Shown here: piece by piece, positions 2,315 through 6,056 of the stretch
Layout of the letters: each line of letters begins with the position of its first letter
How positions within the stretch are numbered: the first letter of the stretch is position 1
Origin: Candidatus Hikarchaeia archaeon HikBin5
GTDB taxonomy: Archaea; Halobacteriota; Halobacteria; Halobacteriales; Hikarchaeaceae
Direction of reading: 5' to 3'
NCBI GenBank assembly: GCA_009889625.1
Contig: WTZU01000002.1
Location: forward strand, 76,472-132,958
Length of the DNA: 56,487 bases
The notes under the pieces: generated by a model
Databases searched by the model: none
Told to the model about the DNA's origin: nothing
What the model saw: the letters and a program-made list of their open reading frames with translations, nothing else
Translations under genes and position numbers: made by a program

Positions 2315-3463
2315 CTAGGTTAATTCGATCCAATTGTCTGGGCCATTTTGCCACTCTTGGAATTCTTCTTCATTGCCAGACTCTGAATAAAACTTACCTC
2401 CCGAACCATCATTTAAGGTACATGGAATGGGATTTTCTTCGCGCTCTTGTCTTGGAATGGTCATTTGAGATCGGCTAGTAATGCCTCGTTCTTGATATTC
2501 TTCGAATACCTCGTCGGTCATAACATCGAAAAATGAGATATATTCCGTTCGAATACTGCTACTTACTGCTACTGCAATCTCACCTTGGCCATTTGGACGC
2601 ATGATATATCCCAAATGCTGCCCAGAAGTGACACTCCCTCCATCGATGAATTCGTCGAATAAATCCACATGGTGGAAAGTAAATATTATTTGTGAAGATT
2701 CTTTTGGGCTAATATAAAACTGATATTCGGTCCCTTGTTCTATTTCCTTGGGGACTACACCATAGAGGTCCCCATCCACAGGAGAATAGAATTTAACATT
2801 TCCACGAGTATCATAAGAACCAAAACTACTATCCCAGCGTTGTTGATCGGTGTATGCATCGAAATAGTGTTTCATACTAGAGCAAGATTTTCCAGTGGGA
2901 TCATGATCAGTTGAGCCATAATTGTAATTATGGCCATATGCAGATCGAATTTTGGTAATTCGAATGAATGGTTCAAGATCTATGAAATTGTGAGTGGCTA
3001 CTTTCGGGGGGTTGGTAGGATCGATATTTAGTTGGGCTGCTTTTTGATTAGATTCAATATATTTACTATTATCCACATCTGGAACAAAAGAAGTTTGATC
3101 CATTGATTTTTCCATATGTTCTACTATCGACATATCTTCCTGATGCATTGTTTCCATCATATCTACCATTTCTTCCGTGGAGAGTCCCATGGCCTCCCCC
3201 ATAGTTCTCATTTGTTCCATAGTCATACCTCTGGATTCGGCTACACTTCGCATTTGTTCCATAGTCATACCTCTGGATTCTGCCACTTGTTTCATGTTTT
3301 CAGAAGGGGGAGAGATATTAGTTAGGGCTTCTGCTTTATTTTCGGAGGGGAGAGGATTCAATTGAGCGGCATCCTCACCGGGACCCCCCATACAACCTGC
3401 AAGTAATAGAAACAGGATCAGAATAAGAGTAGTTGAAGTTTGGTTTTTGATAGTTTTGGCCAT
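2315..3463 (-). CDS. Lipoprotein with Met-rich 14-residue repeats and LytM-like domain (paralog of the next gene)
   Basis: This 382-residue exported lipoprotein has unknown function. The N terminus has a basic stretch, a hydrophobic core and the lipobox LLLAGC, so the mature protein is probably anchored outside the cell through Cys24. Residues about 58-110 carry tandem 14-residue units of the type VAESRGMTMEQMRS, continuing into a Met/His-rich helix (MVDMMETMHQEDM). The C-terminal part has segments resembling an M23/LytM beta-sandwich: SPVDGDLYGVV, FTFHHVDLF and GGSVTSGQHLGYI, but the usual zinc-ligand set of active M23 peptidases is not recognisable. A paralog with the same order of parts lies 38 bases upstream, so the two are probably co-transcribed. 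It could sense or store metal or bind a glycan; I cannot tell which. Confidence 0.8.
   Translation of the reverse strand: MAKTIKNQTSTTLILILFLLLAGCMGGPGEDAAQLNPLPSENKAEALTNISPPSENMKQVAESRGMTMEQMRSVAESRGMTMEQMRTMGEAMGLSTEEMVDMMETMHQEDMSIVEHMEKSMDQTSFVPDVDNSKYIESNQKAAQLNIDPTNPPKVATHNFIDLEPFIRITKIRSAYGHNYNYGSTDHDPTGKSCSSMKHYFDAYTDQQRWDSSFGSYDTRGNVKFYSPVDGDLYGVVPKEIEQGTEYQFYISPKESSQIIFTFHHVDLFDEFIDGGSVTSGQHLGYIMRPNGQGEIAVAVSSSIRTEYISFFDVMTDEVFEEYQERGITSRSQMTIPRQEREENPIPCTLNDGSGGKFYSESGNEEEFQEWQNGPDNWIELT
3209..3280 (-). repeat. 42-bp tandem coding repeat in the lipoprotein gene
   Basis: Two copies of an identical 30-base block start at 3209 and 3251, giving a 42-base period that encodes the 14-residue Met-rich unit. 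Identity at the DNA level, not just the protein level, suggests recent duplication or continuing conversion. A weaker copy continues on the C-terminal side of the repeat region. Confidence 0.8.
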
Positions 3464-3501
3464 ATATAGATCAAAAGTTGTTTTTAATTGGGCGAATATT
3501 T

Positions 3502-4692
3502 TTATCCGGTAACGGGTTTTGTTTTTCCTTCAGGTGTTTCCTCTATTGCGGTGTATCTGCAGCCTGGAGAAACCATTTGCTCTTGAGGATAATTGGAACT
3601 ATCTCCAGACCAAGTTTCGAAACTGTTCATTAGATCTTGGATTTTTGATTTATACAGCAATTCCACAGATTCATCTAGGTACATAGTAGGACAATGATTT
3701 CGCACACCGAGATTTTCGCCACGTTTTGAATCGTCTCGGATATATTCAAAAACGGTTAGTTCAGTTCTACCATTAATGCCAGAATTAGTGGTATCCTGCC
3801 AATTGCCCACATAACCAAGTACTTGTCCTGCTTCGATAGTTGTGCCTTCTTTAATAATTTCTCCATTTATCGTAAGTGGCAAGTCACAATCGACAGGGTT
3901 AGCGCCACTTCGATCACAATCGATACTAGATATATGATCGAGATTTACCCCCCATGCAGCACGCTGGGATGATGCTATAATCAATTCCCAATCGTCTTGT
4001 TTATACGAAGTTGTGGGTTGGAAATTTATCATAGTCACTACACCACTTATTGGTGCAATTACGACAGTATCTGCCGGGGCTTTGAATTCAAATGTAGGGT
4101 TGTCGTATTGCGTAGGAGACCCACGGTCGTGGATCATGCCAAAGTCATCAAAAATGGTATTTCCACCCGCGGTTTGGTAGTTCGAATTGAATTTAAGGTC
4201 ACCGAAAGTTGAGGTTGTGGGATCCCAGGGGCCTAAATTTTTTATCATTAAATTTTGAAGTTTTGGAGGAGTTTCTTGAGAAGATCCAGAATGGGATGAA
4301 CCCATAGATTCTCCCATTTTCATCATATTCTCCTTGCTCATCCCCATGGATTCTCCCATTTTCATCATGTCTTGCATACTCATGCCACGAGATTCTCCCA
4401 TTTTCTTCATATCTTCGGGATTCATTTTACTAGGATCCCCCATTGGAGGCAGCATTGGGTTTTCTGACTTCTTAGATTCTTTTGTTTCTGGAATTGGTTC
4501 TGTGTTTGAGTTTGTAGTCTCTTCAGCTTCTTTCTGAGCCGCCCCATCCTCATGGTCATGTGCGTGGTCCGCATGATCATCATGGTCATGTTCAACTGCA
4601 ATTTCTCCGCCCCCTCCTGCACATCCTGCAATCACAAGACACAATGCTACGAGAAATATTGCATAGGGTATTTTCTTATTTTTTCCGTTCAT
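3502..4692 (-). CDS. Lipoprotein with His-rich segment, Met-rich 14-residue repeats and LytM-like domain
   Basis: This 396-residue paralog has unknown function. The signal peptide ends in lipobox VIAGC (Cys24). A His/Asp segment follows directly (HDHDDHADHAHDHED, about 35-49), typical of surface metal-binding tails, then a low-complexity Glu/Lys/Thr linker. Three 14-residue units of the type MKKMGESRGMSMQD occupy about 94-135. The C-terminal domain contains APISGVVTMI, NLDHISSID and GTTIEAGQVLGYVGNW, which match the layout of an M23/LytM domain. The final HLHFE-like strand is replaced by ELTVFEY, so it is probably not a zinc peptidase. His and Met together suggest Cu/Zn handling outside the cell, but this is inference. 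Confidence 0.8.
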   Translation of the reverse strand: MNGKNKKIPYAIFLVALCLVIAGCAGGGGEIAVEHDHDDHADHAHDHEDGAAQKEAEETTNSNTEPIPETKESKKSENPMLPPMGDPSKMNPEDMKKMGESRGMSMQDMMKMGESMGMSKENMMKMGESMGSSHSGSSQETPPKLQNLMIKNLGPWDPTTSTFGDLKFNSNYQTAGGNTIFDDFGMIHDRGSPTQYDNPTFEFKAPADTVVIAPISGVVTMINFQPTTSYKQDDWELIIASSQRAAWGVNLDHISSIDCDRSGANPVDCDLPLTINGEIIKEGTTIEAGQVLGYVGNWQDTTNSGINGRTELTVFEYIRDDSKRGENLGVRNHCPTMYLDESVELLYKSKIQDLMNSFETWSGDSSNYPQEQMVSPGCRYTAIEETPEGKTKPVTG

Positions 4693-4790: not shown

Positions 4791-6056
4791 TCAAAAAGTT
4801 TGTATTTCAATTTGGACAGGTTTGACTTTAACAGAGATATAAGACAAATAGATACCCACTACAATTGCAATGAAACCAAATAGAGCGTTAGTTAATCGCA
4901 GAGAAAACACTAGTTCATAGTGAGATTGCAATAGGATAAAAACAATTCCCATGAAGAGGGGAGCAAATGTGGCTCCAGCACCTTTTGCAGTTTCTCCAAA
5001 ACTTATGATAATTCCTCTGAAATCAGCCGGTGTGAGCTCAATTATGATGACCCTCCAAAGAGAGAATAAGAGTCCAAATCCAACACCTATCAAAGATGCA
5101 CCAAATGCAATATGTTGAATTGATTGGGACAATGCAACGATGATTAAACCGCCCCCAATAACAACAGAAAGGGAATAAAAGGGATAAATTAAATTTGAGA
5201 AATAGGAATAAACCCTTCCAGATTGTGAAGCTGCTATTGCAGATGCGCCGCTAAATAAGGACACGAGAATTCCTGCTTGTCCAGCAGATCCGCCGATTCC
5301 AAGAATAATTATCAAAGAACTATAAGTCACATAGGCTGCGAAAACAAAAGAAGTGACAAACATTCCAAGGATGGCTGCTGAAAGTTGGGGGTAAAGTAAT
5401 AAAATGGGCGTTTTCTTCAATATTTTTTTGAGGGAGATATTATTCTCAGAATCTATTTGAGAAAGGGCTGAAGAGGGTTCTTTTAAAAAGAAATATATGA
5501 TGATTGCGATGGGGATTGGGATGGCGTACAACAAGAATGGATAATTCCACGCTATGAGTACTAGGAAGCCAGAAAATATTGGGAAAAGTGCCCCACTAAC
5601 TCCGTGGCTAGTGGATCTTAATCCTTGGGCGGTCGCACTGGCAGGACCTGTGTAAAGATCCCCCAAAGAGGCCACTATCACAGGTAGAATGCATGCGCCA
5701 CCGATTCCTTGTAAAAGTCGGAGAAAAAGTGTAAGTAAAAAGGTATTGCTGAAAGCCATCGATATGCCAGAGATGCCAAATGTCAATAAACCGATGACCA
5801 AAATGGGTTTTCTTCCATAAATATCAGTTAACCCTCCCGCTAAGGGGGAGAGTAGCATAAGTGGGGCAAAAAATGCAGTTACTAGTAGCCCTATTGCTGC
5901 AGGAGTGGTCGAAAGGGGCAAGATGAGAGATTCCAAGACGGGAGATATCATTGTGGTCCCCATTGGATAAACCATGTTGGCCATTAGCAAAAGTTGTAAA
6001 CTCCGGTCAGAGAGTATGTTTCCTTCGGACCCAAGCAAATTTTTTAACGAGATCAA
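4791..6056 (-). CDS. Major facilitator superfamily transporter
   Basis: This is a 421-residue membrane protein with about 12 hydrophobic segments. The MFS motif A, GGLTDIYGRKP, sits between TM2 and TM3 (about 74-86). The substrate cannot be read from sequence; the general type is a drug/metabolite efflux or sugar-type permease. It starts with TTG, overlapping the stop codon of the upstream epimerase gene in a TTGA arrangement, which points to translational coupling. A sugar-nucleotide-type dehydrogenase paired with an exporter suggests a shared pathway, but no further partner is present. Confidence 0.85.
   Translation of the reverse strand: MISLKNLLGSEGNILSDRSLQLLLMANMVYPMGTTMISPVLESLILPLSTTPAAIGLLVTAFFAPLMLLSPLAGGLTDIYGRKPILVIGLLTFGISGISMAFSNTFLLTLFLRLLQGIGGACILPVIVASLGDLYTGPASATAQGLRSTSHGVSGALFPIFSGFLVLIAWNYPFLLYAIPIPIAIIIYFFLKEPSSALSQIDSENNISLKKILKKTPILLLYPQLSAAILGMFVTSFVFAAYVTYSSLIIILGIGGSAGQAGILVSLFSGASAIAASQSGRVYSYFSNLIYPFYSLSVVIGGGLIIVALSQSIQHIAFGASLIGVGFGLLFSLWRVIIIELTPADFRGIIISFGETAKGAGATFAPLFMGIVFILLQSHYELVFSLRLTNALFGFIAIVVGIYLSYISVKVKPVQIEIQTF

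Follow-up and report, generated by a model that had tools for sequence, protein, structure and literature searches.

What do two neighbouring archaeal lipoprotein genes, both with methionine-dense repeats and neither covered by a described family, contribute to the cell that carries them? They lie in the window, the 56,487-nucleotide stretch of Candidatus Hikarchaeia archaeon HikBin5 that we analysed, as two minus-strand ORFs of 382 aa (P0001, 2315–3463) and 396 aa (P0002, 3502–4692) separated by a gap of 38 bp; all features of the pair given below are on the minus strand. The original prediction of adjacent paralogs with a lipobox and common 14-residue units agrees with what we find. Both proteins have a basic n-region, a hydrophobic core and a lipobox cysteine, Cys24 in each, at the end of LAGC or IAGC, and in P0002 a lipobox scan of the sequence places the signal peptide and lipobox (VIAG/C) at 4621–4692. 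From the lipobox we infer that both are located at the cell surface. In a pairwise BLASTP comparison, similarity between the two is confined to the signal and the repeats (E 2e-11). A tRNA-Gln (TTG), the sole tRNA in the window, lies at 2223–2297 and separates the pair from SufBCD-like genes.

The repeats are regular at both the protein and the DNA level. P0001 carries three Met-rich 14-residue units (AESRGMTMEQMRSV, AESRGMTMEQMRTM and GEAMGLSTEEMVDM) at residues 61–102 (3158–3283), and P0002 three units and one partial unit at residues 85–131 (4300–4440), as judged from periodicity and predicted helices. Residue identity at lag 14 reaches 29 in P0002 and 31 in P0001, against a maximum over all lags of 23 for each in 5000 shuffles, and the DNA of the two genes matches itself at lag 42 with an identity of 0.68 and 0.62, where other lags give about 0.27. 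Exact DNA repeats of 20 and 30 bp occur inside the 42-bp-unit arrays of the pair, and the P0002 array is also picked up by Tandem Repeats Finder, with a period of 42. Methionine makes up 13% of the tether between anchor and C-terminal domain, compared with a genome background of 2.1% (binomial p 6e-9 and 2e-9), and of the 1731 ORFs (stop to stop, 100 aa or longer) in the genome sequence that we read, P0001 and P0002 rank top in Met density per 45-aa window. In a full-length AF2 model of P0002 built from 6 sequences, which is poor overall (pLDDT 56), three short helices are predicted with moderate confidence in the repeats, 14 residues apart, at 92–101, 106–115 and 120–129.

Behind the repeats, the C-terminal domain of P0002 (residues 145–396; 3505–4260), placed by AF2, PDB fold search, profile alignment and Pfam, is predicted to have a LytM beta-sandwich fold. 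Its AF2 model, built from an alignment of 17 homologues, has a pLDDT of 89.5 and a pTM of 0.88, and essentially all of its best 40 PDB matches in Foldseek are M23/LytM proteins. S. aureus LytM (2b13) matches with a probability of 1.00 and a target TM-score of 0.65, and other matches include DipM (7qrl, 0.61) and EnvC (4bh5, 0.58). A fold search of a viral library with the same model gave the same M23/LytM picture; separately, positions 5001–5252 of an IMG/VR contig (L048) show a weak 26% match to the core of the P0002-type domain and possibly belong to an ordinary phage M23 protein. Several M23 chains were also listed in a profile search of PDB sequences (best E 9e-4), and 14 of the 17 P0002-family homologues give weak matches to Pfam M23 (best E 9.9e-8), P0002 itself scoring 20.7 bits against PF01551, under the gathering score of 28.7 bits.

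Profile comparison identifies the C-terminal domain of P0001 (residues 152–382; 2318–3010) as a distant homologue of the P0002 domain: hhalign against the P0002 family gives a probability of 95.7%, and the P0001-type profile also picks up a P0002-type domain at E 4e-6. Against M23 itself the P0001 domain compares weakly (20%), and a Pfam search of its family with E values as high as 0.1 brings up nothing. The M23-like fold foreseen for both proteins, rather than an unrelated one, is thus borne out for P0002 by structure prediction and fold search and for P0001 by profile comparison alone. Matches to DUF7537, phytochelatin synthase and xylanase were rejected, being below threshold or limited to the signal or short stretches. 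No Pfam or NCBIfam model covers either protein above its cut-off, and in this sense it still holds that the pair represents no described system; a partial literature collection likewise yielded no description of the family.

If the fold is that of a peptidase, is the enzyme still active? We compared the zinc site by profile alignment with intact M23 domains from the relatives' genomes, at the HxxxD and HxH positions, where the zinc ligands of LytM lie; HxH comprises the catalytic His and a zinc His. In the global profile alignment, the HxxxD position of P0002 reads N198-P-T-F-E202, an NxxxE. The HxH region falls around N307-G-R309, without His, the second His position being R309 and the counterpart of the HLHFE strand ending at E311 (GRTEL). 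All three zinc-ligand positions thus carry changed residues in P0002. The HxH region reads NGRTEL in P0002 and NGQGEI in P0001, which also lacks the zinc motifs. Across the family alignment the HxxxD positions hold neither His nor Asp, and among the members aligned only L023 and L024 have a single His in the HxH region. H253 of P0002 is invariant in 17 alignment rows and by motif reading is plausibly the counterpart of another canonical active-site His; hhalign aligns that part differently. The zinc site had been suspected to be missing, and these alignments agree. The loss of the HxxxD and HxH motifs leads us to reject an active peptidase as a reading of the pair and argues against peptidoglycan endopeptidase activity; with every zinc ligand replaced, hydrolysis by the P0002 domain is unlikely.

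A fold of this kind can serve without cutting: DipM and EnvC are LytM factors that regulate other enzymes. A role for the pair in regulating an envelope hydrolase, in the manner of EnvC, NlpD or DipM, which activate or coordinate other enzymes, would suit a LytM fold with its zinc site lost, as in such factors, and intact M23 proteins are present elsewhere in the genomes of several bacterial relatives. In two Dehalococcoidia-class genomes (L023 and L024), moreover, the P0002-type gene adjoins one for a beta-lactamase-fold lipoprotein, which keeps an SxxK motif and in L023 matches PF00144 at E 4e-33. However, the archaeon is not expected to have peptidoglycan, and no Pfam M23 match passes E 0.001 in the host genome (G000) or in a genome of the same genus (G001), which leaves the pair no evident M23 enzyme to regulate. 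Nor did the neighbours that we read in G000, G001 and L011–L014 include a recognisable amidase, FtsEX or divisome gene. We consider hydrolase regulation an unlikely role for these proteins.

Metal capture, of copper or zinc at the cell surface, was the function originally proposed; on this view the Met repeats would bind Cu(I) and a His/Asp run Zn or Cu(II), with the protein attached to a glycan by its LytM-like part. The run itself is real and, as had been noted, lies just after the lipid anchor of the larger protein, at residues 35–49 of P0002 only (HDHDDHADHAHDHED; 4546–4590); the earlier description of a His-rich tail was inexact in that the run is near the N-terminus. Together with the very high Met content of both tethers it speaks for metal binding, and the orthologue in the sister archaeon (G001) keeps its Met repeats. 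A His/Asp run of this sort also directly follows the lipobox of another lipoprotein (L010, on G001 contig C56), whose C-terminal domain is unrelated; such a run thus looks like a spacer common to lipoproteins of the genus.

Comparison with relatives tells against this proposal. The P0002 tether, 121 aa long, contains 13% Met and 7 His; that of the G001 orthologue has 120 aa with 12% Met and zero His, the His/Asp run being missing. Most homologues have 0–5% Met in a tether that ranges across the family from 10 to over 200 aa, with unrelated compositions. In the closest bacterial homologue (L011) the tether is 182 aa long with 3% Met, and its repeat is a 12-residue helix-turn unit with Leu/Ile/Val. 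Elsewhere the tether consists of Thr/Ala repeats followed by SMDPSKMQG (L012), of Thr/Gln (L013 and L033), of GGGSMP (L035) or of Trp/Glu (L021), or shrinks to 16 aa (L014) and 10 aa (L034). Short Gly/Pro-rich stretches with Met recur in several relatives, at a density below the archaeal level. The conserved part is the domain, not the Met/His tether.

The gene neighbourhood points the same way. No metal transporter, chaperone or regulator adjoins the pair; instead, upstream on the same strand lie a gene for an MFS transporter with kinship to efflux families and one resembling NAD-dependent epimerases, neither exceeding its NCBIfam cut-off. G001 preserves this arrangement, and there too the P0002 orthologue is followed by a second lipoprotein gene, truncated at the edge of the contig; no neighbours are common to P0002 and its bacterial relatives among those read. 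Elsewhere in the host genome, unlinked to the pair, the minus strand of contig C20 encodes at bases ~1–320 (L091) a protein that looks secreted, bears a very long His/Asp run (HDHHDHDDHGAEHHDDHDDH...) and is truncated by the contig boundary. Its gene is divergent from one for a Fur-family regulator (PF01475, E 1.7e-10); this is the likelier metal-handling locus. We set metal capture aside as the main function, since Met and His are not conserved. Surface copper or zinc capture by the pair is improbable as originally proposed, and quite improbable as a lineage-specific addition to the lipoproteins.

The Met density of both tethers could also be taken for a methionine sink, in which exposed surface Met would scavenge oxidants and methionine sulfoxide reductases would regenerate it; the literature on methionine redox homeostasis (for example PMC8076862) describes bacterial proteins rich in Met that scavenge oxidants. 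We think this very unlikely, given that Met is not conserved across the family, that no sulfoxide reductase adjoins the genes and that the Met periodicity suits a helix face better than maximal exposure. It fits the predicted helices that Met is the hydrophobic residue of short amphipathic helices in the archaeal repeats, with Leu/Ile/Val in the same role in L011. Some selection on Met itself may nevertheless act in the archaeal tethers, because no other part of the genome sequence read is as dense in Met and the sister archaeon retains this density.

The distribution of the domain is as uneven as its tethers. The orthologue in G001 is 66% identical to P0002 and in a syntenic position. A genome scan found further P0002-domain homologues, 47–64% identical in the domain, in marine Dehalococcoidia, Actinomarina and Nitrospinota (Nitrospinaceae). 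Searches of genome samples gave 8 of 294 genomes of the Dehalococcoidia class (six with E < 1e-60), 5 of 148 of the Actinomarina class and 1 of 24 of the Nitrospinota phylum. In its own archaeal phylum the domain appears in 1 of 345 sampled genomes, the host itself. The P0001-type domain occurs in 3 of the 294 Dehalococcoidia-class genomes, two of these copies being 52–57% identical in the domain, and both types are present together in one bacterial genome (G272). In an unrooted tree, P0002 clusters with the G001 orthologue and L011 (support 99/99), the latter from a 6-kb contig of a metagenome bin, which makes its assignment more tentative than those of L013 and L014. The patchy distribution suggests that the P0002-type family spread by lateral transfer, most simply from bacteria, the tree being unrooted. 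Contamination was excluded, as the pair sits on a 133-kb contig amid archaeal genes and its neighbourhood is syntenic in the same-genus genome; a viral origin was also rejected, scans of viral contigs with P0002 and with the P0001-type alignment giving no match and the P0002-type alignment giving the one weak L048 match. The host genome measures 1.07 Mb in 36 contigs (70.5% complete, 40.3% G+C), and its order-mates have genomes of 2–4 Mb. Marine Group IV, or Hikarchaeia, is described with about 1.2 Mb and 40–42% G+C (PMC7599335), and the host's small genome, base composition and placement agree with this.

Overall, we judge it fairly probable that P0001 and P0002 are paralogous surface lipoproteins in which a variable spacer bears a zinc-less, LytM-fold, non-catalytic binding module, a pseudo-peptidase. 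The lipidated cysteine would anchor each protein on the outside of the membrane, the spacer would project the C-terminal domain from the membrane, and the M23/LytM-fold domain minus its zinc site would serve in binding, a role for which we argue by analogy. The Met-rich repeats would then be a spacer particular to the lineage, made up of short amphipathic helices. Since the family is patchy across marine bacteria of different envelopes and an archaeon, the modules probably bind a partner protein or an extracellular or surface polymer, whether peptide or glycan, rather than the cell's own peptidoglycan; glycan binding through the putative LytM-like binding part is possible. A wider reading, which we put forward tentatively and as somewhat doubtful, is that dead M23-fold surface receptors, independent of peptidoglycan and with interchangeable spacers, are laterally shared among oceanic bacteria and a haloarchaeal-line archaeon, probably of Marine Group IV, with the Met-rich helical repeats having a chemistry of their own in the archaeal genus. 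The fold of a bacterial cell-wall enzyme, stripped of its catalytic site, thus persists in an archaeon expected to be free of peptidoglycan and is patchily common to unrelated plankton. If the binding role is true, proteins of this type would give access to what streamlined marine cells contact at their surface. The pair also illustrates that a striking composition, here in Met and His, can belong to a disposable spacer, which becomes visible only through comparison with relatives.

Several known systems resemble parts of this arrangement. The tether shares its composition with the Met- and His-rich metal-binding spacers of envelope proteins but differs from them in that it is not conserved, has no adjacent metal genes and places Met in helix register. 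EnvC, NlpD, DipM and SpoIIQ offer an analogy, at the level of the fold only, for a LytM domain that serves binding or regulation outside the membrane, and NlpD is, like P0001 and P0002, also a lipoprotein. These proteins act on peptidoglycan or spore-envelope machinery, whereas the P0002 family is also found in an archaeon, and the amidase or FtsEX linkage of EnvC, NlpD and DipM was not seen for P0002-type genes among the neighbours read. With M23/LytM itself (PF01551), P0002 shares the predicted fold and the core motifs Ap..V.apisG.v and G..v.aGq.lg.vG, but its family departs from M23/LytM in lacking the zinc and HxH motifs, and P0002 has an extra Cys-containing insertion and a C-terminal helical extension.
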